A stretch of 60,955 bases of DNA from NCBI GenBank assembly GCA_021324415.1, contig JAJPJF010000168.1:1-60955 (forward strand). Direction: 5' to 3'. The position numbers and the translations under genes were made by a program. This DNA is from Nostocales cyanobacterium Centralia_MAG_434 (lineage in GTDB: Bacteria > Cyanobacteriota > Cyanobacteriia > Cyanobacteriales > Nostocaceae). Under the pieces are notes generated by a model. The model was not told the origin of the DNA. It did not search any database and saw only the letters and a program-made list of their open reading frames with translations. This document shows positions 4,707-35,284 of this stretch, piece by piece. Each line of letters begins with the position of its first letter. Position 1 is the first letter of the stretch.

Positions 4707-6350
4707 CTACAAGCGTCGTTTTCGTCTCTGCCAAATCTTGAGTCCTTCAAACCACAGAATACTGAAGACTCCGGAGGTTAGGCTGATCAATAAATCGTCA
4801 ACATGTAGATAGGAGAACCGGAAGAGGTGTCGCAAAATAGGGACGTAAAGGACCAGTAACAGAAAAACAGCACCGCCACCAATAACCCACCACAGTGCTG
4901 CATTTGGAGTGCGTAACATTTCTGGAATAGTCCGTGACCAAGAGCGATTACTCAAAATCATGCTGAGGTTAGAAACAATCAGGGTGGTGAAGGCAAGGGC
5001 ACGGGCATCCAGTTCTCCATTACCCTGGTAAAAGGCGATCGCAAACACTGCCACTAAAACTACCAATACACTCACCCCTTGCAGCAGGACTAATCTCCAC
5101 GTCTGACGGTTAAATAGTGATTCCCCAAGAACTCGAATTCAAAGTTATGCTGTCGGTCAGGTAGAGTATGACTTTGTTTTCACGAAGAATGCTGTCGTGT
5201 TGCTTTGGCAACTCCTAAAACACGTAAACCATCAGCAGCCATAGTGCTGATATGCTGCTCAAGCTCATGTAACTTGAGAGCATCAAAGTGGCATAGATCC
5301 GCGATCGCCTCTGGTGCTCCTTTTGCGGCAATCATTAACTTGCCTTCTTGAGATTGCCAAACACAGGACATTGCCAGCAATTCACCAGATAGGGGATACT
5401 CGCGCAGTAATTCCCAATCATCATGCAAATGTTCAGTCTTTGCCAGGTAATAATTACCCATTTGCTTGAGGGCTTTCTCCATCGGATCGAACGGATCTTT
5501 TCGACTCGCCAAAATGCCAAATTCGATTAACTGATGAAATGCCTCTGGCAATGATTCGCGTGCGTGTAGAGTAACATCGTAAAATGTATTTCCTGAATTA
5601 TGAGGCACAAACAATTGCTGAACCGACATCCGGTTAAAGGTGAGCGTGCCTGTTTTGTCTACACACAAAACTGTAGCTGCACCCAACGTCTCAACCACGG
5701 GAATACGACGAGTTAAAACTCGTTGTTGCGAAAATCGCCATGCTCCCAGTGCCAAGAAAATTGCTAATACGACAGGAATTTCGTTGGGCAAAATTGCCAT
5801 TGCTAGTGCCAGTCCTGCCAGAAAACCTTGTAGCCAATTACCTCTGGTTGTTCCATAAATCACCACAACTGCAACACAGATAGCAAGTGCCACAATTGTG
5901 AGTTTGCTGACAATACGTCTGGTTTCTTTTTGGAGAACGGTATCCTCTGGTTCTACTGTCTGTAAGGCTTTGCCAATCTTGCCCATTTCTGTGTGGATAC
6001 CTGTTGCTTGCACCTTAGCAATACCCTGACCTTGCACTACCAATGTTCCAGAGTAAACAAACGGCAGATCATCCCCACCGGGGTGTGGGAGTGTGTTTAA
6101 CCCAATCTCTTCATCTTTGGCAGCTACTTTTCTGACTGATAGTGACTCTCCTGTGAGCAAAGACTCATCCACTGTCATGTGCGTAGACCAGAGCAAGATT
6201 GCATCAGCTGGAACTCGATCACCCTCTGCCAATATCAGCAAGTCATCTCGAACAACTTCTCGTCCTGCAATCCGCTGACGTTGTCCATCTCGGATTACCA
6301 AAGCACGGGGACTGGAAAGATCGCGCAATGCTTCTAGTGAGCGTTCGGTG
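4707..6350 (-). pseudogene. Deleted P-type cation-transporting ATPase
   Basis: Two separated parts of one P-type ATPase lie in order. The upstream part (about 6350 to 5180) starts abruptly at ERSLEALRDLSSPRALVIRDG, keeps TGES, the phosphorylation motif DKTGTLTFNRM and KGAPEAI, and ends with a stop just after LRVLGVAKAT. The downstream part (about 5140 to 4707) is the C-terminal membrane domain, readable from LGESLFNRQTWRLVLLQG to RRKRRL. Missing are the N-terminal hundred or so residues and roughly 250-300 residues carrying TGD, GDGxND and several membrane helices. Residue runs resemble calcium- or proton-type pumps with a cation-ATPase C-terminal domain. It cannot make a working pump. Confidence 0.85.
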
Positions 6351-6519
6351 TGTAGTGCATGACATCAATGATTTTGCCATTGGTGGTATTTGGTAGTGGA
6401 GCATCAACAGTCTGCGAAGGCGAGCCAAAATCTACTCCAAGTAAATTGAGCAAGCTAGGCAACACACATATAAAAACTACTGCCCAAACCAATTGAACTG
6501 GAATCCTAGTTTTGATCAT
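6351..6519 (-). pseudogene. N-terminal fragment of a membrane sensor protein
   Basis: From an ATG at 6519 a frame reads MIKTRIPVQLVWAVVFICV, a membrane helix, then NTTNGKIIDVMHYT, and hits a stop right after joining the ATPase sequence. I recall this N-terminus from cyanobacterial multi-helix sensor proteins (histidine kinases or cyclases with a membrane input domain), but that is memory, not alignment. Only about 50 residues remain. The join to the ATPase fragment is direct and in a different frame, so this is a deletion fusion and not a functional chimera. Confidence 0.6.
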
Positions 6520-16622: not shown

Positions 16623-16920
16623 GATTTATTATGACCCTAGACGTTTACTACCTACGACCGCTCTGATGAGAAGTTTAGTTCTCCTCTGGTAGTAATAAAG
16701 TGGAGGAAGCGATAAAAACTCCACAACCATCTATGCCTGTGTATTATATGCACCGTCCAGATATCTGACATCGCTCTCCTTCGATATCCGACTATGAGTC
16801 ACTGCGGCATAACCCTCATCCGGTGCGGTTTTGAATGTTTATAAATTGGCTAGAGAGGCTAATATGATTAGCTGACAAAATTCCTCGCCTCTACATGAAA
16901 TTCGCAAACTTGCTGAGTTT
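16623..16920. other. Intergenic stretch between terminator hairpin and small membrane-protein gene
   Basis: About 300 bases with no credible ORF or strong structure. It lies at the 3' end of the small membrane-protein gene. Confidence 0.4.
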
Positions 16921-21417: not shown

Positions 21418-24114
21418 ATGTACATGAATGGCATAAGTTTATCTCCTTTAGTGGTTAACGAAGCTAATGGCTCTTATAACAAGTTGAGTACGAATGAAAA
21501 TCAGTGGATTGAAGTACTAGTAGACTGTCCCGGAAATTCCGGACTTTTTACCTATCGATTGCCATCTCAGTTAGAAGTGAAACCAGGAGATATTTTAAGT
21601 GTCCCATTTGGAACACAAATCCTAGGAGGCATTGCCATTCGTTTTCTAACACATCCTCCAACAGATATACCAGTAGAGAAAATTCGGGATGTTGTAGATG
21701 TCGTTAGCAGTGGGTTTTTTCAACCTACTTATTGGGAACTTTTACATCAGGTAGCTACATATTATTACACACCATTAATTCAGGTAATACGTGTAGCTTT
21801 GCCACCAGGGATATTAGGGCGATCGCAGCGTCGGATTCGTCTTGTAAAAGGTATGGACAGTGAGCAATGCAGAGTAGGGGAGGATAGGGGAACAAAATCC
21901 GCCTCATCCCTTATTCCCTTTCTCTCTCCAATAGCACAACAAATTTTGGAACTTTTGAAGACACAAGCTGATGGAGATTACAGTTTTGCTTACATACAAC
22001 GGCAAGTCAAAGCTGCTTACCGGGGAGTCCGGGAATTGCAGCAACGTGGCTTAGTAGAAAGTTACCTAGAACCACCACGCCTGAGTAAACCAAAGCTACA
22101 AAAAGCAGTCATCCTTATAGCAAGCACCTTTGAGCATGACTTAACTCCTCGCCAACGAGAAATTTTAGAAGTGTTACGACAACGGGGAGGAGAGTTATGG
22201 CAAAGTGAATTATTACAAATTTGTCATACAAGTCCCTCTACCCTTAAGATTTTAGAACAAAAGGGTTACATCGTTATTCAAGAACAGGAAATATTGCGAA
22301 CCCTTTGTGTTTCCCCTCCATTAGGAGGAGAACAAGAAAATAAAGCGGAGGCAAAATCCCTAACACCTGCACAGTCTGAGGCTTTAGCAGCAATCACCCA
22401 GTTAAATAAATATGCTACTTTTCTGTTGCACGGGGTGACGGGTTCAGGAAAGACAGAAGTTTATTTGCAAGCGATCGCGCCCTTACTCACGCAAGGTAAA
22501 TCTGCTCTCGTGTTAGTGCCAGAAATTGGACTCACACCCCAGTTAACCGACCGTTTTCAGGCTCTTTTTGGGAACAAAGTCAACGTATATCATAGTGCTC
22601 TTTCTGATGGAGAACGTTATGACACTTGGCGACAAATGCTTACAGGAGAACCTCAAGTTGTTATAGGTACACGAAGTGCAATTTTTGCCCCTTTGCCAAA
22701 CTTGGGTGTAATTATCTTAGATGAAGAACACGACAGCAGTTTTAAACAAGATTCCCCCATCCCCACCTATCACGCCCGCACCGTTGCCCAATGGCGAGCA
22801 CAATTAGAAAACTGTCCCTTGGTCTTAGGTTCCGCAACCCCCTCGTTAGAGACTTGGCTGAGTGTCTTCAACCTAGAGGAAGAAAAGGAGACTGGGGCGA
22901 CAGGGGAGCACAGGACCACAGAAGCACAGGAGCAGAGGCAGATTGGAGATGCTTCTATGTCCTCCCTATCCTCCTTGTCCCCCTTGTCCCCCCTGTCCCC
23001 CCTGTCCTCCTTGTCCTCCCCCTCCTCCCCCTTCTACCTCTCCCTACCTGAACGCATCAACTCTCGCCCTTTGCCACCTATAGAAGTGGTGGATATGCGG
23101 CAAGAATTTCAACAAGGGAATAAGACAATTTTCAGCCGCTCGCTTCAGGCTGTGCTACAGGAGATACAACAAAACCATGAGCAACAAGGAATTTTGTTTA
23201 TTCATCGCCGAGGACACAGTACCTTTGTCTCTTGTCGCAGTTGTGGGTATGTCATCGATTGCCCTCATTGTGATGTGTCATTGGCGTATCATTTGATCGA
23301 TGAGGATAAGTTGGAATTATTGCGGTGTCATTACTGTAATTTTGCGCGATCGCACCCGCGAAACTGCCCAGAATGTGGTTCTCCTTACCTAAAGAATTTT
23401 GGCAGTGGTACCCAAAGAGTGGGGGAGGAGTTAAAAAAGCACTTTCCTGAGTTGCGCTTTATCCGCTTTGATAGCGATACCACTCGCAATAAAGGCGCAC
23501 ACCGTACATTATTGAATAACTTTGCCAATGGTGAAGCAGATTTGTTAATCGGGACACAAATGTTAACTAAGGGATTAGATTTGCCTCAGGTAACACTTGT
23601 GGGTGTTGTTGCAGCTGATGGACTGCTACATTTATCAGACTACCGTGCTAGTGAGCGAGCGTTTCAAACCTTAACTCAGGTTGCTGGACGTGCTGGCAGA
23701 GGAGACAATCCAGGAAGAGTGATTATTCAAACCTACACCCCAGAGCATCCGGTTATTGAAGCGGTACAACACCACAATTATCGCTCTTTTATTCAAACTG
23801 AACTGGAACAACGGCAAGCTCTAAATTACCCTCCTTATGGTCGGTTGATTCTGTTACGCTTGAGTAGCCTTGATCCCATAGCTGTGCAAAATGTTGCTCA
23901 AATGATAGCAACAGCTTTGCAAGCCAAAGATGGGTTAGAGATTTTAGGACCAGCGCCAGCAAGCATTTTACGGGTAGCCAATCGTTACCGCTGGCAAATA
24001 TTACTGAAATTTTCCCCTAGTGCGTTGCCTGTTCCAGATTGGGAGGAAGTGCGTCAACTTTGTCCCCAGTCTGTGAGTTTGACGATAGATGTTGATCCAC
24101 TGAATATGATGTGA
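21418..24114 (+). CDS. priA: Primosomal protein N' (replication-restart helicase PriA)
   Basis: A 3'-5' superfamily 2 helicase that reloads the replisome at stalled forks. The 898 residues show the N-terminal DNA-binding domain (LVDCPGNSGLFTYRLP), Walker A GVTGSGKTEVYL, DEEH box (ILDEEHDSSFKQD), the paired zinc-binding Cys knots (CRSCGYVIDCPHCD; CHYCNFARSHPRNCPECG) and helicase motifs IGTQMLTKGLDLP and QVAGRAGRG. It is longer than usual: residues about 485-540 are a low-complexity insert ending in many Ser-Leu-Ser-Pro units, encoded by the dispersed TCCCCCTTGT repeat. The insert keeps the frame and lies between SATPSLETW and the conserved YLSLPERINSRPLPP. ATG 21424 is an equal start candidate. 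Confidence 0.93.
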   Translation: MYMNGISLSPLVVNEANGSYNKLSTNENQWIEVLVDCPGNSGLFTYRLPSQLEVKPGDILSVPFGTQILGGIAIRFLTHPPTDIPVEKIRDVVDVVSSGFFQPTYWELLHQVATYYYTPLIQVIRVALPPGILGRSQRRIRLVKGMDSEQCRVGEDRGTKSASSLIPFLSPIAQQILELLKTQADGDYSFAYIQRQVKAAYRGVRELQQRGLVESYLEPPRLSKPKLQKAVILIASTFEHDLTPRQREILEVLRQRGGELWQSELLQICHTSPSTLKILEQKGYIVIQEQEILRTLCVSPPLGGEQENKAEAKSLTPAQSEALAAITQLNKYATFLLHGVTGSGKTEVYLQAIAPLLTQGKSALVLVPEIGLTPQLTDRFQALFGNKVNVYHSALSDGERYDTWRQMLTGEPQVVIGTRSAIFAPLPNLGVIILDEEHDSSFKQDSPIPTYHARTVAQWRAQLENCPLVLGSATPSLETWLSVFNLEEEKETGATGEHRTTEAQEQRQIGDASMSSLSSLSPLSPLSPLSSLSSPSSPFYLSLPERINSRPLPPIEVVDMRQEFQQGNKTIFSRSLQAVLQEIQQNHEQQGILFIHRRGHSTFVSCRSCGYVIDCPHCDVSLAYHLIDEDKLELLRCHYCNFARSHPRNCPECGSPYLKNFGSGTQRVGEELKKHFPELRFIRFDSDTTRNKGAHRTLLNNFANGEADLLIGTQMLTKGLDLPQVTLVGVVAADGLLHLSDYRASERAFQTLTQVAGRAGRGDNPGRVIIQTYTPEHPVIEAVQHHNYRSFIQTELEQRQALNYPPYGRLILLRLSSLDPIAVQNVAQMIATALQAKDGLEILGPAPASILRVANRYRWQILLKFSPSALPVPDWEEVRQLCPQSVSLTIDVDPLNMM
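22958..23034. repeat. In-gene copy of the GGACAAGG tandem repeat
   Basis: Reads as successive TCCTCCTTG / TCCCCCTTG / TCCCCCCTG nonamers on the plus strand, coding for Ser-Leu-Ser-Pro runs inside priA. The same unit in the other orientation follows the gene at 24126-24179. Confidence 0.75.
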
Positions 24115-24987
24115 AAGGGCATGGGAGACAAGGGGGACAAGGAGGACAAGGGGGACAAGGAGGACAAGGAAGACAAGGGGCAGAGGAGTAAATCCCTTGT
24201 TTGTGAAGTTTAGCTTTCTTAATTTTGGATTTTGAATTTGTATTACTTAAAACGTGAGTGTTTATTGAGTGTTTAGATTAATTTAAACTTTCGATATAGG
24301 GTTTTTATATTTGTGAATCTATTCCTTGAAATAAGGATTAATTTAATCAGAAATTAAATTTAAAATAAAAGGTTTGTGTGGCACAATATTGTTGTGTCTT
24401 TAATATGAGGTATACTTATGTTTTTTAAGGTAAAGATTGATTAAAAGTCGTTATCAATAGCATTAACATAATTGCTCAAGAAAGATTCAGCTTAGTCAAG
24501 TATAATATGTGTGTAATATGGCAATCTTAATAAGGGTGTGGGGTATAGGGTGTAGGGTGTAGGGTCTCCTCATCAATGAATTGAGGAGATTTCATTTATG
24601 AATAAATTTTTTGTTTTCTCCATAAATAAATTTAGGGGCTTTCTACCCACTTGGGTGTAGAGTAGGGTGTTCATTTTCTGCAAGAATTTCTTTTTACCCC
24701 TACACCCCACACCCTACCACCTACACCCGTTTTTTCGGTAAATCATTTGTAAACAGGGAGAGACACGGTTGTTCACAAAAACCAGGTTTCTGTAACTGAC
24801 AAATTTATTACTCAAATAGGATTGCTATACAAATAAGTTTTGCTCAAAAATATTATGCACTATACAGTCAAAAATTGACTTTGATGATGTATTCCTCTGG
24901 ATGAACTCATCCTGCTAATTTTAAAATTGCTTCATAAACTGTTTTCAGCAACACAGAGAAAATATATCTGAAGCCCTATAAATAAAA
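24115..24987. other. Repeat-rich region between priA and the first kdpA
   Basis: About 870 bases without a gene. It holds a GGACAAGG tandem block (24126-24179), a long inverted repeat of TAGGGTGTAGGG-type sequence (24534-24564 against 24697-24728), and a hairpin TCTCCTCA/TGAGGAGA (24565-24589). The last 250 bases are AT-rich and should carry the kdpA promoter. No riboswitch I can recognise. Confidence 0.55.
24126..24179. repeat. GGACAAGG tandem repeat
   Basis: Six or so imperfect nonamers of the form GGGGGACAA / GGAGGACAA in a row just after priA. Confidence 0.8.
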
Positions 24988-26688
24988 ATGTTGCAAGGAT
25001 TTTTTCAAATTGCCCTAACACTATTAATTGTGGTAGGACTAACTCCTATTCTTGGCGATTATTTGGCACGGGTTTTCATGCCAACGGAAACACGTCTCGA
25101 TCCTGTGCTTAGACCAGTGGAAAACTTCATCTATCAGATTAGTGGAGTTGATCCCCAGAAAAACATGACAGGTCGTCAGTATAGCTTTGCCGTGCTAATT
25201 AGTAATGCAAGCATGGGGCTGTTAGTCTATCTCTTACTTATCTTTCAGGCAAAGTTGCCCCTAAACGTAACTCATTTAGGAATGCCAACTTGGGACACAG
25301 CTTTGCACACAACTATCTCATTTTTGGTTGCAGCCGACCTTCAACACTACTCAGGCGAGACAACTATGTCCTATTTGTCCCAAATTGCGGCTTTGGGCTT
25401 TTTGATGTTTGTTGCTCCTGCAACGGGTGCTGCAGTCGGAATTGCCTTTATTCGAGGTTTAACAGGTAGACCATTGGGAAATTTTTACGTTGATTTAACT
25501 CGTTTTATCATGCGGGTTTTATTACCAATATCCATTGTGGGTGCGGTGTTATTGCTGATCATCGGTGTGCCAGAAACATTAGCAGGGCCGCAGACTGTAA
25601 CAACATTAGAGGGGATGAACCAAACTATAGCTCGTGGTCCGGTAGCCCATTTCGAGAGCATTAAAATGCTTGGTGAAAATGGAGGCGGTTTTTTTGGTGT
25701 TAACTCTGCTCATCCTTATGAGAATCCAAATGGTGCTTCTAATCTTTTAGAAATAGTTTTTCAGCTTTGTATTCCTGCTGCTTTCATCTACACTTACGGA
25801 ATATTTATAGGAAATAAAAAGCAAACAGATTTACTTTTCCGGATGGTGTTTGCGATTTTTATTGTGCTGATTGGGGTAACTGTAGTGGGTGAGTTTCAAG
25901 GAAACCCTCTCATCAATTCTTTATTAGGATCACAACAGCCAAATTTGGAAGGTAAAGAAGTTAGATTAGGTTGGGTAGAAACGGCTTTATTTGCAGTCAC
26001 CACTACTAGCACTATGACTGGTTCAGCCAATGGGGCATTTGATTCTCTGATGCCTTCTGGTGATTTTTGTGCCCTTATCAATATGTTTCTTCAGGTTATT
26101 TGGGGATCAGTAGGAACTGGAACAGCGTACCTATTGATATACCTATTTTTATCGGTGTTTTTGACTGGCTTAATAGTCGGGCGAACACCAGAATTTTTAG
26201 GACGAAAAATTGACCGGAGGGAAATCACTCTAGTGGGTTTAATTGTGCTGATTCACCCTCTATTAATCTTACTGCCTACCAGTATTACCCTTGCCTTTAC
26301 TGATACTCTAGCAGGCATCAGCAATCCCGGCTTTCATGGACTAACACAGGTGGTCTATGAGTATGCTTCAGCTGCTGCCGGTAATGGTTCTGGAATGGCT
26401 GGTTTGGGAAATAGTCAACCCGCGCCTACTGCGCTATGGTGGAATTTAACTACCACACTCACTCTCTTATTAGGACGATATATTCCAATTATTGTCTTGC
26501 TGCTTTTAGCGGATGGTATGTCCCATCAACAACCTACACCTGTAACTAGGGCGACATTACCGACAGATACTAGCCTGTTTGTAGGGGTAACATCTGCCAG
26601 CATTCTCATTTTAGGAGTCCTGACTTTTTTTCCAGTTCTGGCATTAGGACCGATTGCCGAAGCATTTCAATTGGTAAGTGGACGCTAG
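24988..26688 (+). CDS. kdpA: KdpA paralogue with altered selectivity-filter residues
   Basis: A 566-residue, about ten-helix protein of the KdpA family, the channel-like K+ subunit of the KdpFABC pump. It aligns end to end with the second kdpA (28403). Filter loops 2 and 4 are conserved (GENGGGFF and NGSGMAGLG), but loop 1 reads [14 protein letters not shown] where typical KdpA and the second copy have the TNT motif, and loop 3 reads [12 protein letters not shown] instead of [12 protein letters not shown]. Thus residues 114-116 and 344, 346, 347, 350 and 351 differ. The gene is intact and not decaying. No kdpB follows it directly. It may have changed ion preference or affinity, or a regulatory role; these are inferences. 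Confidence 0.88.
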
Positions 26689-26777
26689 CTTGTACAACTT
26701 AGTATTATCAATACAGCACTGAAAAAGAACGCAGAATCCAGAACTCAGAATTCAGAGTGTAGGAGGTTTTAAAATTC

Positions 26778-26913
26778 GGCGTTGCTGAATTTGGGTATGA
26801 ATTATGTTTGTAGATATTTTTTTAGTTAGAAACCAAATCCTTGTAGAGACGTAGCATTGCTATGTCTCTACACACCCGTGAATTATAAATTTATACTTTG
26901 ATTCAGCAACGCC
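26778..26913. mobile_element. MITE-like element with GGCGTTGCTGAAT ends, 136 bases
   Basis: Perfect 13-base terminal inverted repeats (26778-26790 and 26901-26913), extended imperfectly inward by another dozen bases. In the centre is a hairpin GTAGAGACGTAGCATTGCTATGTCTCTAC. There is no ORF. The ends resemble those of IS630/Tc1-type non-autonomous elements in Nostocales, as I recall. It lies between kdpA and the next small gene. Confidence 0.7.
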
Positions 26914-27110
26914 TAGAATTCAACCACTACCAGAGTGAAAACTTCCCGTGGTCAAGATTTTTGCGTTGATTTGACCTCGTACTCATCATCCATCAGGAAA
27001 GAATTCTTCCTGAATTCTCAGATCTGAGTTTTGATTTTTATGGAAATTTTATTGCTAATTCAGGGGATATCTGATGGTAAAAAGAATACAAAGTGGGGAG
27101 ACTATTTAAA

Positions 27111-27539
27111 ATGAAATTATTTTGTATATATGACTCATATTTTCGTCCTTTTTATTTATTGATTGAGACTCAATCAAACCAAACGACAATCCTAAAAGGT
27201 ACAGTGGTTCAAGCAACTGCTAATACTTACAAACCTCAAAAGAGTCAAATACCTTATGTACCATTAGTTTTGACTCCTATTTTATTCATATCTCTTTGGG
27301 TGGTTGCTAAGGCGATTTTTACATCAAATGTGCGAAAGTCATCACACAATGATAAAGTGAATAGCAGCAGTTCTCAGGAAGTTCCCTGTAAAAACTGTCA
27401 GTTTTTTAAGGACAATCATTATCTCAATTGTGCAGTCCATCCTTCTGTTGTACTAACCAAACAAGCGCTCAACTGCCCTGATTATTCACCCAAAAGTAGC
27501 ACAAACGAATCGGAATCTACTGATGATTATTTCCGCTGA
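27111..27539 (+). CDS. Small membrane-anchored Cys-rich protein
   Basis: From ATG 27111 a 142-residue protein with one membrane helix (IPYVPLVLTPILFISLWVVA) and a C-terminal domain carrying four Cys: VPCKNCQFFKDNHYLNCAV and ALNCPDYS. The spacing (CxxC, then Cys in NC, then NC) suggests a zinc or metal site facing one side of the membrane. I recall similar Cys tails in other unnamed cyanobacterial proteins. Its stop overlaps the next gene by 17 bases, so the two are translationally coupled. Function unknown. Confidence 0.65.
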   Translation: MKLFCIYDSYFRPFYLLIETQSNQTTILKGTVVQATANTYKPQKSQIPYVPLVLTPILFISLWVVAKAIFTSNVRKSSHNDKVNSSSSQEVPCKNCQFFKDNHYLNCAVHPSVVLTKQALNCPDYSPKSSTNESESTDDYFR

Positions 27540-28053
27540 TACTTATGTCCCCTTTCCTCGTCCACTTGTTTATACGGTTTACCGTGACAAACTCCTAGAA
27601 GTTGTACCCTACTTACCAAATGTACGACAAATAGAGATCAAGTCGCGTCTTGAGGAAGATAAACGTGTTCACTTTGTAAATGAATGGCATGGTGGTGGCG
27701 ATATTCCAGCCATAGTGCGTACTGTGCTGAGTGAGGCTATACTCTCTTGGACTGATTTTGCTACATGGGATGAGTCTAACTTTACCACTGTATGGCGCAT
27801 TAAGACACACGCATTTACTGAAGCAGTTCACTGCGTTGGGAAGAACACTTTCCTTGAAAAAAACGGTGGAACACTGATTGAAAGTAGAGGTGAACTGATA
27901 ATTGATACTAAGCAAATCAAGAATGTACCACAGCTACTTGTGGGTTCAGTAGGTCGATCAGTCGAGGATTTTTTAGGGAAGAAGATTGAACCAAACTTAC
28001 AGCAAGTGGCTGAAGGTGTTCGTCTCTACTTGGAGCAAAAACAAAGGGAATGA
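27523..28053 (+). CDS. SRPBCC (START-like) family protein
   Basis: A 176-residue protein beginning MIISADTYVPFPRPLVYTVY, the classic beta-strand and first helix of the SRPBCC / polyketide cyclase fold, and ending with the long C-terminal helix (FLGKKIEPNLQQVAEGVRLY). The fold makes a deep hydrophobic pocket for lipids or aromatic ligands. It overlaps the upstream Cys-rich gene by 17 bases. A strong terminator follows 42 bases after the stop. Ligand and role are unknown. Confidence 0.75.
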   Translation: MIISADTYVPFPRPLVYTVYRDKLLEVVPYLPNVRQIEIKSRLEEDKRVHFVNEWHGGGDIPAIVRTVLSEAILSWTDFATWDESNFTTVWRIKTHAFTEAVHCVGKNTFLEKNGGTLIESRGELIIDTKQIKNVPQLLVGSVGRSVEDFLGKKIEPNLQQVAEGVRLYLEQKQRE

Positions 28054-28095
28054 TAATTGTTTTATTTAAATTTATGTTCTTGTGATATGTATAAA

Positions 28096-28133
28096 TTGAC
28101 TCTGTCAAGAAACATGCACAGAGTCAAATTTTT
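28096..28133 (+). terminator. Intrinsic terminator separating the first kdpA block from kdpA2-BCD
   Basis: TTGACTCTGT (28096-28105) pairs perfectly with ACAGAGTCAA (28118-28127) around a 12-base loop, followed by ATTTTT. It implies separate transcription of the two blocks. Confidence 0.85.
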
Positions 28134-28402
28134 CATTTTATGAATGTTTATTTAGAAAAATTTAATAGTTCTCTTTTAGAGAATATGTATTGTTTGCAAG
28201 CAATGGTTGAAGGCATCTTTAGCTAGACATTTTATATCAATTTGATATCAATAGATTGAGTGGATCAAGATAAAAAAACGTAAAATGTAGAGTAAGTATT
28301 TAATAGATGTGCGTTATACATTTAAGTAGCTAAACAGTGTATTAACGCACTACATAAATTTATATTTACTTTATTAGCCATCTTGAAATTTTAGCCAGAC
28401 AC
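28134..28402. other. Promoter region of the second kdpA operon
   Basis: A 270-base AT-rich leader between the terminator and kdpA. No KdpE-type direct repeat or riboswitch is recognisable by eye. Confidence 0.4.
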
Positions 28403-30103
28403 ATGGGACAAGGATTTTTTCAAATTGGGGTAACGCTGTGTATCGTGATAGCCATTACTCCGCTGTTGGGAAGGTACATGGCGCGTGTATTCTTGGAGGA
28501 AAAAACACTGCTTGACCCAGTTATGGACTTTGTAGAGAGAATCATCTATTTCCTAGGTGGTATCCGCAGGAAAAATGATATGACGGGTTGGCAGTATATC
28601 AGGGCTGTGTTGTGCAGCAACCTTGTCATGGGCATTTTTGTCTTTTTGCTCCTGATGAATCAAAAATCTCTACCTCTCAATCCAATAGGATTAGTAGCGC
28701 CTCCTTGGGATACAACACTACACACCACGATTTCATTTCTAACAAATACTGACCAACAACATTATTTTGGTGAGGCTACCTTAAGTTACTTTAGCCAAAC
28801 TGTAGCTTTAACCTTTTTAATGTTCACCTCAGCGGCAACTGGTCTAGCAGTGAGCATTGCCTTTATTCGTGGTTTAACAGGTAGACCATTAGGAAATTTT
28901 TATATTGACTTAACTCGTTCGATTACACGCATATTATTACCTATTTCGGTGATTGGTGCGATCGCATTACTTATATTAGGTGTACCGCAAACTCTGGCTA
29001 AACCGGAAACTGTAACGACTTTAGAGGGAGCAACTCAATACATAGCGAGAGGTCCAATAGCTTCTTTTGAGATGATTAAACAGTTAGGAGAAAATGGCGG
29101 GGGCTTCTTTGCTAGCAATTCCGCCCATCCGTTTGAAAATCCTAATAGCGCTTCTAATTTAGTAGAAATCATCGCCATGATTTCTATCCCATCTGCATTG
29201 ATTTACACTTACGGTTTATTTGCTAACAACATCAAACAAGCTTGGCTGCTGTTTAGAATGGTGTTTGTCATTACTGTGCTCTTAGTTTGGATAACATCAG
29301 TTGGTGAATATCAAGGAAATCCCCTCATCAATAGCACTTTGGGAGTAGAGCAGCCAAATTTAGAGGGTAAAGAAGTTAGATTTGGCTGGGCACAAACGTC
29401 ATTATGGGCAGTTCTCACTACTGGAACTATGTGTGGTGCTGTCAATGGAATGCACGATTCACTAATGCCTCCAGGACTATTCTCCACCTTGTTAAATCTG
29501 TTTGTTCAAATTATCTGGGGTGGTCAGGGAACTGGAACCGCTTACTTATTTATATTTCTGATTCTTACCGTTTTTTTAACTGGGTTAATGGTAGGACGCA
29601 CACCAGAATTTTTGGGACGCAAAATAGAACAACGAGAAATTGTTCTAGCCAGTGTAGTACTTTTGGTTCACCCAATTGTCGTTTTAATTCCCAGTGCGAT
29701 CGCCTTGGCTTTTCCCGATCAGTTAGCTGGGATTAGCAATCCTGGGTTTCATGGCATTTCCCAAGTCGTTTATGAATACGCCTCAGCTGCTGCCAACAAC
29801 GGTTCTGGTCTAGCAGGCTTACGAAACTCTCACCCTGCACCCACAGCCATGTGGTGGAATCTCAGTACTTTAGTGAGTTTACTAGTAGGACGTTACATCC
29901 CAATTATTGCCATTCTACTGTTAGCAGACAGAATGGCTCACAAACAACTAGTTCCCCAAACCCCAGGAACTCTCAGAACAGACACCACACTGTTTACCAC
30001 TGTTACAGCAGTGGTCATTTTGATTCTGGGAATGCTAACCTTCTTTCCAGTTCTAGCCTTAGGACCAATTGCCGAAGGATTTCAATTGGGAGTTAGGGGT
30101 TAG
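28403..30103 (+). CDS. kdpA: Potassium-transporting ATPase subunit A (canonical copy)
   Basis: The K+-selective channel-like subunit of the high-affinity KdpFABC pump. The 566 residues keep family filter sequences: [14 protein letters not shown] (loop 1), [20 protein letters not shown] (loop 2), [13 protein letters not shown] (loop 3) and NNGSGLAGL (loop 4). It is followed directly by kdpB, kdpC and kdpD in one direction, so this is the copy expected to work with KdpB. Compared with the copy at 24988 it is closer to what I recall of Anabaena KdpA throughout. ATG 28403 starts the conserved MGQGFFQI. Confidence 0.95.
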
Positions 30104-30256
30104 GAGTGGGGAGTTAGAAATTATAAATTATAAATTGTTATTCTTCTGACTTTTGTCTTCTCCCTTCTTCCCAACGCCACTTGCTACAACAGAGGAAATC
30201 TCTGCGACGTAGTAAGTTGTTTTTCCCACACCCGACACCCCACTCCCTAACTCCCC

Positions 30257-32353
30257 ATGACCGATTCTCTCCCATCCAGATCTCCTCGTTCTCGTCCTGG
30301 TCTTCGCCGTAGGACACGTAAAAAAGTTCAGCCAAACACAACCGAACTCTACAAAAGAGCGATTCAAGATGCGTTCATAAAACTCCAGCCCAAGTATGCC
30401 ATTAAAAATCCTGTGATGTTTTTGGTTTGGGTTGGTACCATCATTACTTTACTAGTAACCGTTGATCCCTACTTATTTGGTCCTGTTCCGGGCAAAAACT
30501 TGCGATTGTTCAACGGACTGATCACAGGAATTTTATTCTTCACTGTTTTCTTTGCCAATTTTGCTGAAGCAGTTGCTGAAGGACGAGGTAAGGCACAAGC
30601 AGATGCTCTGCGCTCAACCAAATCCGACATAATCGCGAAAAAACTCTCATCTGATGGGTCAATAGTTGAAGTCCCTTCCACTAGCCTCCATCGAGATGAT
30701 ACTGTGTATGTTCTAGCTGGTGATATCATCCCTGCAGATGGAGAAGTGATTATGGGTGTCGCTTCGGTGGATGAATCAGCGATTACTGGGGAATCTGCAC
30801 CAGTACTTAAGGAAACAGGTTCAGATGTAGCTAGCTCCGTGACAGGTGGCACGCGTATCATCTCTGATGAACTCATTATCCGCGTCACAGCAGATCCAGG
30901 TAAAGGCTTTATTGATCGAATGATTGCCTTGGTGGAAGGAGCAGAACGAACGAAAACACCGAATGAAATTGCCTTAACAGTACTACTGGCAGTTCTTAGC
31001 TTAGTATTTTTATGTGTCATTGCAACCCTGCCAACGATCGCATCCTATGTTAAAAGTCCAGTTAGCGTAGCCATATTGATTGCCCTTTTAGTAGCATTGA
31101 TCCCCACCACAATCGGAGGGTTGTTGAGTGCTATTGGCATCGCTGGTATGGATCGAGTGGCCCAGTTTAATGTTATTGCTACCTCAGGAAGAGCAGTAGA
31201 AGCATGTGGTGATGTTAATACCTTAGTACTTGATAAAACAGGTACAATCACTCTTGGCAATCGCTTAGCAGAGGAGTTCATTCCTATTAATGGACACTCA
31301 ATACAAGAAGTTGCTAATGTAGCTTTAGCTGCCAGTATATATGATGAGACTCCTGAAGGAAAATCCATTGTGCGACTAGCAGAAAAATTGGGTGCTAAGG
31401 TTGATTTTGACCCTAACACAGCCGAAGGTGTAGAGTTTTCTGCCAAGACTCGCATGAGTGGCACGAACTTTCCTAACGGAACGCAGGCGCGAAAGGGTGC
31501 AGTATCAGCGATTAAGGGATTTGTTCGTTCTCGTAATGGACGAGACACACCAGAACTAGATGCTGCATTTGAACGAGTTTCACAACTAGGCGGTACACCC
31601 TTGGCCGTAGCCCTTGATGGTGAACTCTACGGCGTTATTTATCTTAAAGATATTGTGAAACCTGGTATTCGGGAACGCTTTGACCAGTTGCGGCGGATGG
31701 GCGTCCATACAATCATGTTAACTGGCGACAACCGAATTACTGCTTCTGTGATCGCTAAAGAGGCTGGTGTAGATAAATACATTGCTGAAGCCACACCAGA
31801 AGACAAAATTAGCGTGATTCAACGGGAACAAGGAGAAGGCAAATTAGTTGCAATGACAGGGGATGGTACTAACGATGCACCAGCTTTAGCCCAAGCCAAT
31901 GTTGGAGTAGCAATGAATACTGGTACTCAAGCTGCAAAAGAAGCCGCCAACATGGTGGATTTAGATTCCGATCCTACAAAACTTATTGATATTGTCTCTA
32001 TTGGCAAACAATTGCTGATCACTCGAGGGGCTTTGACAACATTCTCGATTGCTAATGATATTGCTAAATACTTTGCAATTATTCCTGTGTTATTTGCCTC
32101 AGCCAACTTACAAAGTCTAAATATTATGAAGTTAACTAGCACAAATTCTGCCGTGCTGTCAGCATTAATTTATAATGCTTTAATTATTCCAGCGTTGATT
32201 CCCCTAGCGCTAAAAGGTGTGAAGTTTAGACCCTTATCGGCTAATCAGTTATTACAACGAAATATTTTAATTTATGGTTTAGGTGGTGTAATAGCTCCAT
32301 TTATTGCAATTAAGTTCATTGATATTGTGATTACAGCCATAGGCTTGGCGTGA
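30257..32353 (+). CDS. kdpB: Potassium-transporting ATPase subunit B (P-type ATPase)
   Basis: The catalytic P-type ATPase subunit that powers K+ uptake by KdpA. The 698 residues contain the actuator motif ITGES (176-180, with the Ser that is phosphorylated for inhibition in E. coli), the phosphorylated Asp326 in [10 protein letters not shown], nucleotide-binding KGAVSAI, MLTGDN and [13 protein letters not shown]. The basic N-terminus ([17 protein letters not shown]) is normal for cyanobacterial KdpB. It lies 153 bases after kdpA and 126 before kdpC; the second spacer contains GGACAAGG repeats. No kdpG or kdpF is visible in the gaps. Confidence 0.97.
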
Positions 32354-32373
32354 GCAGAGGGGAGGGGAAGAAG

Positions 32374-32405
32374 GGGAGGACAAGGAGGACAAGGAGGACA
32401 AGGGA
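32374..32405. repeat. GGACAAGG tandem repeat between kdpB and kdpC
   Basis: Three GGAGGACAA-type nonamers in a row. A reverse-orientation block lies after kdpC (about 33108-33139). Confidence 0.75.
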
Positions 32406-32479
32406 GACCTTCTATCCTAATACCTCACTCCCCATTCCTTAATAAATAATCGTTTATTCTCACCGATCTACTTATTTTT

Positions 32480-33085
32480 ATGTATCTTTTAAGAGAAGTC
32501 GTCAGGGCAATTCGCATAACTCTTGTTTTCTGGGTCATTACTGCAATTATCTATCCAGTATTGATACTTTTAGTTGCTCAAGTTCCTTTTCTTCAAGAGA
32601 AGGCTAACGGCAGCATAATGCATGATATTCAAGGACAACCAATCGGTTCAGCTTTGATTGGTCAACAGTTTAAATCTGATCGATATTTTCATGGTCGTCC
32701 CAGTGCTGTGAAATATAGTCAAGGCAAGGACGCTAGGCAAACTGGTATATCCGGTGCAAGCAATCTTGCTCCTAGCAATCCAGGGTTGCTCAAGCGTGTA
32801 GAAGAAACCGCAAACAAACTCGCAGATGAAAATATCCAACCAACTGCAGATTTAATCTACACCTCTGGTTCTGGCTTAGACCCTCATATTTCACTAAAGG
32901 CAACACAACAACAGTTGACAAGAGTTGCTAATGCTCGTGGTGTCAGACCAGAAGAGTTACTTCCTTTAATTTCTAAATACACAGAAGGGCGATTTGTAGG
33001 AATATTTGGAGAGCCTGGAGTCAACGTTTTAAAATTAAATTACGCTTTAGATCTTGATGAGTTTAATCGTAAACAAAGTAAATAA
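32480..33085 (+). CDS. kdpC: Potassium-transporting ATPase subunit C
   Basis: Assembly subunit that bridges KdpA and KdpB and raises ATP affinity. The 201 residues have one N-terminal membrane helix (ITLVFWVITAIIYPVLILLV) and a periplasmic domain with GSALIGQQFKSDRYFHGRPS, SGSGLDPHIS and ANARGV, all KdpC signatures. Length is normal. Confidence 0.95.
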   Translation: MYLLREVVRAIRITLVFWVITAIIYPVLILLVAQVPFLQEKANGSIMHDIQGQPIGSALIGQQFKSDRYFHGRPSAVKYSQGKDARQTGISGASNLAPSNPGLLKRVEETANKLADENIQPTADLIYTSGSGLDPHISLKATQQQLTRVANARGVRPEELLPLISKYTEGRFVGIFGEPGVNVLKLNYALDLDEFNRKQSK

Positions 33086-33174
33086 ATAATTCTTAATTTA
33101 TTCATCCCCCTTGTCTCCCCTGTCCTCCTTGTCCCCCCTACTCCTAACTCCCCATTCCCCCTCATTGAGTCAGC

Positions 33175-34356
33175 ATGATTGGTGATCCTAACTCAGAAAA
33201 TCCAAGCAATCAAAGCATGTTTTCTTATCCTCATGACCTGAGTCCTGCAAAACGGGGCAAACATAAAATATTCATTGGCATGGCTCCAGGAGTAGGAAAA
33301 ACCTACCGAATGTTGGAAGAAGGTCATGCACTCAAGCAAGAAGGTATTGATGTTGTGATTGGGTTATTAGAAACCCACGGACGTAAGGAGACATCCCAAA
33401 AAGCGGAGGGATTAGAAATCATCCCCCGCAAGCAAATTTCCCGAGGTGGGTTGACCCTAACTGAAATGGATACAGATGCAATTTTAGAGCGATCGCCTCA
33501 GTTAGTCTTAGTGGATGAATTGGCGCACACCAACGTTCCCGATTCGCTACGAGAAAAGCGCTACCAAGATGTAGAAGTTATTTTGAATGCGGGTATCACA
33601 GTATACTCTACCATGAACATTCAGCATCTAGAAAGTCTTAATGATTTAGTAGCACGGATCACTGGTGTGGTGGTGCGAGAACGTGTTCCAGACAAGGTAC
33701 TAGATGAAGCAGATGAAGTTGTAGTAGTAGATGTTACGCCGGAAACATTACAAGAACGGTTGCAAGAAGGGAAAATTTATGCACCTCAAAAAATTCAACA
33801 AGCGTTAAATAACTTTTTCCAACGTCGTAACTTGATTGCTTTGCGGGAGTTGGCACTACGGGAAGTTGCAGACAACGTTGAGGAAGATGCGATCGCGTCC
33901 ACCCCCCAAGGTCCAGCTTGTAATGTTCATGAACGAGTGTTGGTGTGTGTATCTACTTATCCTAACTCAGTGCAACTATTACGTCGGGGAGCCAGAATTG
34001 CTGGTTATATGAATGCCCCACTTTATGCGATGTTTGTTGCTAATCCAGAACGTTTCCTGACTAAAGAGGAAAGCTTGTATGTAGAAACTGCGGAGAAACT
34101 TTGTAAAGAGTTTGATGGTACATTTATTCGTGTTAGTGACAATGACATAGCTAAGGCGATCGCAGAAGTAGCTGCACAATACCGCATCACCCAAATAGTT
34201 ATTGGTGCAAGCCAGCGCAGTCGATGGCAAATACTTTTAAGAGGGTCGTTAACTCATAAGTTGCTGCGATTGCTCAAAAATGTAGACCTGCACATCATTT
34301 CCGATGCTGATGAGAAAAAAAATCAGCCGAATCGTTCAGCCTTAGAGTTAGAATGA
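33175..34356 (+). CDS. kdpD: Short KdpD: N-terminal sensor domain without histidine kinase
   Basis: A 393-residue protein equal to the cytosolic N-terminus of KdpD: Walker A GMAPGVGKTYRML, LVDELAHTNVPDSLREKRYQ and TMNIQHLESLNDL form the KdpD domain, then from about residue 255 a universal-stress-protein domain (VHERVLVCVSTYPNSVQLLR ... IVIGASQRSRW). The four membrane helices, GAF and histidine kinase of the E. coli protein are absent. Truncated KdpD is a known feature of Anabaena kdp operons, so this is not a broken gene. No kdpE follows. It probably senses or binds nucleotide second messengers and signals by another partner; that is inference. Confidence 0.92.
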   Translation: MIGDPNSENPSNQSMFSYPHDLSPAKRGKHKIFIGMAPGVGKTYRMLEEGHALKQEGIDVVIGLLETHGRKETSQKAEGLEIIPRKQISRGGLTLTEMDTDAILERSPQLVLVDELAHTNVPDSLREKRYQDVEVILNAGITVYSTMNIQHLESLNDLVARITGVVVRERVPDKVLDEADEVVVVDVTPETLQERLQEGKIYAPQKIQQALNNFFQRRNLIALRELALREVADNVEEDAIASTPQGPACNVHERVLVCVSTYPNSVQLLRRGARIAGYMNAPLYAMFVANPERFLTKEESLYVETAEKLCKEFDGTFIRVSDNDIAKAIAEVAAQYRITQIVIGASQRSRWQILLRGSLTHKLLRLLKNVDLHIISDADEKKNQPNRSALELE

Positions 34357-34609
34357 AGCGTTTTATTCTACAGTGGGCCAATTAAGTCTGTCACAATGGA
34401 GTTAATTCCTAGAAAAGTACAAGCTGTTTGGGTTGTCAAGCACAACTCCTGTTTTAATAAGGTTGATAACATCACACAAACAAAAATTATTTCATATTCC
34501 AGAATAGACAGTGTTAGCGTAAGTTATGCGTTATGCATTTTTTCCTGAATTCCCAGTAACTAGCAATGTAGTTATTAGTAAAGTGCTGACTATTTGGTAA
34601 CCTTAACAA

Positions 34610-35284
34610 ATGCTCTATCTTAGAAACCTCGTTTATCACCCTACTGCTTGCCCAACAGCGATTCTCAAATCAATTAATTTGAACTTAGCACCCCAACAAC
34701 TGGGTTTAATTATTGGTCCAAGTGGCTCTGGCAAAAGTACGCTACTTGAAATTTTATCTGGGTTAGCCGAACCCACATCTGGTTCAGTCTTCTGGCGTGA
34801 ACAAGAGCTTATAGCTGAACAACTGCAACAACTAGCTGGATTAGTGTTTCAGTTTCCAGAGCGGCATTTTTGTGGTGGGACTATTCTAGAAGAATTGCGC
34901 TTAGGACATCCAGAGCTAGGATCGGAGCGAGTTAAGCACGCACTAAGTGAAGTAGGACTAGAGCATTTATCACTTGATACGTCACCTCATGCTTTAAGTG
35001 GTGGTCAACAACGGCGTTTAGCTTTCGCCGTGCAGTTGATTCGCCAGCCTCATCTACTTTTGTTGGACGAACCTACGGCTGGTTTAGATTGGTCAATGCG
35101 TCGTCAACTCGTAAATTTATTAGCAAAACTGAAAAAAGATTGGACGCTGTTAGTGGTGACACACGATGCAGGAGATTTATTGGCGATCGCAGATTGTTGT
35201 TGGATGATTAACCACGGTGAACTGAGATCGGTTGATCCCAAAGCACTGGAGACTAAAGTGAAAGAACCACAAGCAGCAGCTTAG
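34610..35284 (+). CDS. ABC transporter ATP-binding protein (CbiO/Ecf-like)
   Basis: A 224-residue ABC ATPase: Walker A GPSGSGKST, Q-loop VFQFPERHFCG, signature LSGGQQRR, Walker B LLLLDEPTAGLD, switch VVTHD. The Q-loop sequence FPERHF resembles CbiO/EcfA energy-coupling subunits and quinol-type exporters. No permease is adjacent, so the transported substrate is unknown; it may serve a permease encoded elsewhere. It starts 253 bases after kdpD, with a spacer where I see nothing definite. Confidence 0.85.
   Translation: MLYLRNLVYHPTACPTAILKSINLNLAPQQLGLIIGPSGSGKSTLLEILSGLAEPTSGSVFWREQELIAEQLQQLAGLVFQFPERHFCGGTILEELRLGHPELGSERVKHALSEVGLEHLSLDTSPHALSGGQQRRLAFAVQLIRQPHLLLLDEPTAGLDWSMRRQLVNLLAKLKKDWTLLVVTHDAGDLLAIADCCWMINHGELRSVDPKALETKVKEPQAAA

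Follow-up and report, generated by a model that had tools for sequence, protein, structure and literature searches.

A conserved KdpA variant with an altered selectivity filter in Nostocales, a candidate alternative subunit of the Kdp potassium pump

The Kdp pump is described as highly selective for K+, and relaxed selectivity has been reported for laboratory mutants of its filter (PMC12629597, PMC8385062). In Escherichia coli, mutations in the filter of KdpA, the K+-binding subunit of KdpFABC, alter affinity or selectivity while coupling is retained (PMC12629597). The substitutions Q116R and G232D both lower the affinity: the Km for K+ rises from 0.04 to ~21 mM in ATPase assays, and from 0.23 to 5.2 and 3.8 mM, respectively, in transport assays (PMC12629597). 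Selectivity is relaxed in G232D, which lets in Rb+ and NH4+ but scarcely any Na+ while remaining coupled (PMC12629597). The multiplicity of kdp systems found here has a precedent in a nitrogen-fixing cyanobacterium, Anabaena sp. L-31, for which two kdp operons are described (Ballal and Apte 2005, cited in PMC5716572), a likeness taken from the title of that study and concerning operon number only. A literature search turned up no report of a naturally occurring KdpA whose filter is changed; it covered titles and the first lines of abstracts of open-licence papers, and is thus weak evidence of absence.

The window analyzed here, 60,955 nucleotides long, is one entire contig (C130) of an 8.4-Mb genome in 551 contigs. 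Most of its named relatives belong to the Nostocales, for example Scytonema, Rhizonema, and Nostoc. Between 24988 and 34356 the forward strand carries, in this order, a kdpA gene (A1), two further genes (x1 and x2), a second kdpA (A2), kdpB, kdpC, and a KdpD-like gene. A1 (24988..26688) is an open frame of 566 aa that scores 723.7 bits against TIGR00680, a curated equivalog with a cut-off of 387.7; A2 (28403..30103), also of 566 aa, scores 768 bits and is 66% identical to A1. The kdpB gene (30257..32353) encodes all ion-path residues of the pump, kdpC follows at 32480..33085, and the 126 bases between them (32354..32479) hold no kdpF-like gene. The last gene (33175..34356) encodes a 393-aa KdpD-like sensor that combines KdpD and Usp domains, and in which a kinase domain was looked for and not found; its match to PF02702 (332 bits) is above the cut-off, and its best NCBIfam match (NF038185, 455.8 bits) is below the 550-bit cut-off of that model. 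In family score, length, and operon setting, A1 thus resembles the KdpA family (TIGR00680/PF03814), and its cluster, with kdpB, kdpC, and intact KdpB ion-path residues, resembles that of a KdpFABC pump.

Two genes lie between A1 and A2. The small protein x1 (27093..27539), in which we recognized by eye a hydrophobic stretch and a Cys-rich tail, had no match above the cut-off in a Pfam search, and its relatives near kdp operons also occur in genomes that lack a KdpA of the A1 type. The product of x2 (27523..28053; 176 aa) belongs to no recognized family. It was rejected as a specific partner of A1-type proteins because 49 of the 58 genomes with x2, among 217 genomes of the family, have no such KdpA (nine do).

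The sequence-only reading of this locus had described two full-length kdpA genes with a single kdpB, kdpC, and kdpD, and an intact A1 frame. The frame has no frameshift, and the gene count holds for the window, but not for the genome, which contains five kdpA matches (one truncated by a contig end), three kdpC matches, and two more kdpB genes on contig C28. The fifth kdpA, on contig C242 (L037), is the truncated one, and its visible part has a canonical loop 1. One kdp operon of contig C28 (L036:1639-6608) has the order B-F-A-C; its KdpA is only distantly related, with ~44% identity to A2, and has the canonical residues N112, T113, and N466. Assembly duplication as the source of the two kdpA genes was ruled out by their 66% identity, their location on one contig, and their different neighbors. 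Riboswitch control of the operon was also discarded; the sole Rfam match in the window, a CyVA-1 RNA (16750-16826, reverse strand, 83.8 bits), lies away from it. Scans of 24000-34700 gave 25 promoter-like sites, against 26.4 in shuffled sequences, and 13 terminator-like sites, against 8.5 (sd 3.4). A reverse-strand segment at 5597-6439 has weak (25%) similarity to KdpB and possibly encodes another P-type ATPase.

The filter of A1 differs from that of canonical KdpA. Its loops are VAADLQ (residues 114-119), GENGGG (229-234), a third loop of 10 residues (343-352), and AAGNGS (463-468), and the corresponding loops of A2 are TNTDQQ, GENGGG, a third loop also of 10 residues, and AANNGS. In E. coli numbering, A1 has V111, A112, A113, D114, L115, and Q116 in loop 1; E230, N231, and G232 in loop 2; M343, T344, G345, S346, A347, and F351 in loop 3; and G466, N467, and G468 in loop 4. 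At the same positions A2 has T, N, T, D, Q, and Q; E, N, and G; M, C, G, A, V, and H; and N, N, and G. The filter of A2 is therefore canonical, and A2 was discarded as the odd copy. The alignment confirmed the VAA at A1 residues 114-116, the loop 3 residues Thr344, Ser346, Ala347, Ala350, and Phe351, and the coupling-tunnel Gln119 (E. coli Gln116), all named in the sequence-only reading. Loops 2 and 4 had both been taken as intact: loop 2 is indeed identical in A1 and A2, but in loop 4 Gly465 of A1 aligns with E. coli Asn466, a site occupied by Asn in A2 and in all of the canonical KdpA compared.

This comparison covered 65 canonical KdpA rows, a set biased to cyanobacteria and to high-scoring matches, with some rows only 36–43% identical to A1; N112, T113, and N466 are present in 65 of 65, where A1 has A, A, and G. 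All three residues are also kept in four more KdpA encoded on plasmids (Trichormus, Niallia, Azospirillum, and Rhizobium). The best plasmid matches were 60–63% identical, and the one of these that was read, from Trichormus, has a canonical filter. Altogether, filter positions 111, 112, 113, 115, 347, 351, and 466 are altered in A1, as are columns 375-376 in the stretch that follows the filter. The change C344T has little meaning alone, since six of the 65 canonical rows likewise have Thr344. A1 retains the entrance Gln116, the glycines 232, 345, and 468, and Arg493. By analogy with K+ channels, 112 and 466 are sites at which a side chain might point toward the filter's inner end. A structure paper of 2025 reports two side-chain oxygens below site S4, in a section that does not name the residues (PMC12629597). 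Like the E. coli mutants Q116R and G232D, A1 combines a changed filter with an otherwise normal engine; those mutants are laboratory changes at 116 and 232 (PMC12629597), whereas A1 keeps both residues and has other positions altered naturally and maintained.

The structure model of A1 matches chain A of 5mrw (TM 0.82–0.83), but it is a low-confidence model (mean pLDDT 61, below 50 in much of the filter region), so that the overall fold match can be used and the filter geometry cannot. A1 is a KdpA by descent and, as modelled, by overall fold, and it lacks the N112/T113/N466 filter signature of the family. The KtrB and HKT transporters, from the superfamily of K+ transporters, are distant fold relatives of the model (13–15% identity), and A1 is not one of them. 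KtrB and HKT transporters are not known to have a P-type ATPase partner.

We searched the 217 family genomes with A1. A variant group with at least 72% identity was separated from the remaining matches, which reached at most 69%. It comprised 18 genes from 16 genomes, of which two have a pair of copies; each of the 16 also has one or more KdpA matches that fall outside the group. The altered filter is uncommon; had it been widespread among working KdpA proteins, this would have spoken against the sequence-only reading. The exact coding pattern for VAADLQHY was found in only one of 388 genomes sampled across the class, namely this one; that sample contained 24 family genomes, including this one and none of the 15 other carriers.

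Together with one more gene (L057), the 18 genes gave 19 full-length variants, which form a single clade (SH-aLRT 100 with all columns; bootstrap/SH-aLRT still 100/100 after removal of the filter and neighboring columns). A1 and A2 are in separate supported clades and only 66% identical, so A1 is not a recent local (tandem) duplicate. V111, A or G at 113, L115, T344, and F351 are present in 19/19 variants, G466 in 18/19, and A112 in 13/19; N112 is kept in 6/19, T113 in none, and N466 in 1/19. All 19 keep Q116, G232, G345, G468, and R493.

The main filter site, S3, is built of backbone carbonyls (PMC12629597), and for this reason changes of side chains might matter little. A1 could then be an ordinary high-affinity K+ subunit whose filter changes are compensated and nearly neutral, as the five residues kept in every variant and the presence of some variants in complete A-B-C operons would allow. 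We consider this unlikely, given that N112, T113, and N466 are invariant in the 65 canonical rows and that position 112 switched at least three times within the variant clade, in the tree built without filter columns. Further conserved columns also changed alongside the filter. A set of 52 canonical KdpA from cyanobacteria has 246 conserved columns, and the A1 clade has switched 14 of them (111, 113, 115, 139, 140, 141, 327, 347, 375, 376, 388, 466, 490, and 518). Five of the 14 belong to the filter, which accounts for 32 of the conserved columns (Fisher p = 0.023 with these 52 rows). Against all 65 canonical rows, the enrichment in the filter was not significant (3 of 8 switched columns, p = 0.14). 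Three canonical clades treated in the same way as a control had 0, 4, and 3 switched columns, none of them in the filter.

The variant clade is clearly under purifying selection, judging from its substitution rates. Values of dN/dS between variants were 0.096–0.212 (18 pairs), compared with 0.059–0.122 for the canonical KdpA of the same genome pairs, and no stop codons were present in the members used. The variant value was the higher one in 18/18 matched pairs and two other genomes have only truncated fragments (L142 and L116), as expected if A1 were a decaying copy that drifts without function; the fragments also indicate that the gene is dispensable. Decay of A1 itself is nevertheless very improbable, with ratios of only 0.10–0.21 and the same substitutions fixed across 19 proteins. 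A2 had dN/dS values of 0.110 and 0.096 to two relatives. In the window, where A2 is available and seems to be maintained by selection, the cell need not make use of A1.

The genomic context of the variants was diverse: six were in an operon with kdpB, 11 had no adjoining kdpB in the sequence covered, and two were cut by contig ends. In five of the six kdpB operons the variant is the sole KdpA. Two of these have the order A-B-C, one on the reverse strand of L036 (contig C28 of this genome) and the other at L095. The other three, from Scytonema (L092) and Rhizonema (L093 and L094), have the order A1, x1, x2, B, C, D, without A2. L091, also from Rhizonema, shows A1, x1, and x2 up to the contig end. 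These genomes have a canonical kdp operon elsewhere too (L110-L113). L105 is itself cut by a contig end. The presence of the variant filter in complete kdpA-kdpB-kdpC operons shows it to be compatible with a pump context. In the KdpB tree, the proteins of L092-L094 fall within the clade (100/100) that holds the KdpB of the window and whose remaining members are paired with an A2-type KdpA; in the KdpA tree, the A1 of L092-L094 branches as sister to that of the window. These placements point to loss of A2 from a shared arrangement, after which A1 probably became the sole A subunit. One clade, purifying selection, and the sole KdpA beside kdpB and kdpC in several operons together support the earlier suggestion of a paralogue kept for a new job.

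Among the variants without kdpB, six follow a canonical operon at a distance of a few kb on its downstream side: an A-B-C operon in L099-L101, L103, and L104 (only ~500 bases are visible beyond the gene in L101) and an A-B-C-D operon in L102. In L096 and L097, kdpB and kdpC are at least 7–8 kb away, and L090, L098, and L057 have no kdpB within the stretch seen. Such orphans beside complete canonical operons, and the single kdpB and kdpC shared by A1 and A2 in the window, would fit a regulatory or decoy role, in which A1 would compete for KdpBC with A2 and so reduce high-affinity uptake. We find this quite unlikely, and pure regulation of A2 a less likely job for A1, because in five operons (L036 reverse, L095, and L092-L094) the variant is the only KdpA, beside an intact KdpB.

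In many genomes of Nostocales, the gene immediately preceding canonical kdpA encodes a stand-alone TrkA_C (RCK_C) protein (for example L102:7111-7473 and loci in G550:C2, G251:C1, and G452:C1), which suggests a ligand-sensing regulator of the pump. At L057:11702-14864, an orphan variant KdpA is followed by genes resembling SecF, TrkH, and TrkA, where the likeness to SecF comes from clustering with a Pfam SecF match. The orphans could be channels, alone or with an RCK-type partner, like KtrB or TrkH, in agreement with the TrkA_C proteins near several of them and with KtrB structures among the distant fold matches of the low-confidence model. This is hardly plausible, since the similar proteins upstream of canonical kdpA make the association unspecific, and TrkA_C was for that reason rejected as a variant-specific partner; moreover, E. 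coli KdpA by itself gave no K+ uptake (PMC6255902).

On the side of the engine, the KdpB ion-path residues T75, F232, P264, D307, D583, K586, and N624 (E. coli numbering) were invariant in 54/54 sequences, including KdpB that pair with a variant alone. In L092-L094, 23 of 373 otherwise conserved KdpB columns differ in all three proteins, versus 0–7 in six other clades, and their dN/dS is 0.099–0.147, compared with 0.058–0.089 for canonical KdpB of the same genomes. This divergence may reflect adaptation to A1 or looser constraint. Some of the 23 columns (78, 258, 588, 591, 619, and 620) are close in sequence to ion-path residues. The KdpB of the dedicated A-B-C pair differs at only two such columns. 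No KdpB column was shared by the two groups to the exclusion of all others, and the variant therefore has no KdpB signature in common.

A second difference from the KdpA family setting concerns kdpF. A kdpF-like gene (80–90 aa, between kdpB and kdpC, and annotated as subunit F in a Trichormus record) was found in 0/6 operons with a variant and kdpB, versus 48/50 others (Fisher p ~9e-7, with shared ancestry ignored), a correlation that may reflect no more than two or three independent events. In three of the six (the window, L036 reverse, and L095), kdpB and kdpC are too close together to leave room for such a gene; a search of the 0.6–1.7 kb gaps of L092-L094 gave no match. A very short or diverged kdpF in the window could escape the search that found no match there. 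The one clear kdpF-like match of the genome is on contig C28. The other two operons without the gene belong to a Gloeobacterales MAG (L056) and Candidatus Cyanaurora (L058), deep branches in the KdpB tree. The shared absence of kdpF also speaks against A1 as an ordinary high-affinity subunit.

On balance, we favor A1 as an alternative Kdp A subunit that gives a pump with changed (lower) affinity, relaxed selectivity, or both. The effects of the E. coli filter mutants and the intact KdpB make this its most likely role. A1 would probably assemble with KdpB and KdpC in the place of A2 and feed ions into the same ATP-driven engine, and the resulting pump is predicted to show reduced affinity for K+, less strict selectivity, or both (K+, Rb+, NH4+; Na+ is unlikely). 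With the normally invariant filter rewritten in a second copy and then kept, one pump engine may be fed by two filters. A more tentative possibility, which we regard with considerable doubt, is one KdpBC engine that can take either of two A subunits, A2 when K+ is scarce and A1, with its rebuilt filter, under other conditions or for a different cation (higher K+, or Rb+/NH4+-like ions). The clade would then be a natural selectivity-switched Kdp pump whose operons shed KdpF, perhaps on two or three separate occasions.

A natural clade in which rewritten filters are conserved would show how the substrate of a P-type pump could change by a swap of its channel-like subunit alone. Test cases are at hand in the operon with both A1 and A2, in A1 alone with a related KdpB (Rhizonema/Scytonema), and in the dedicated A-B-C operon, and the coincident absence of a kdpF-like gene makes the role of KdpF testable.
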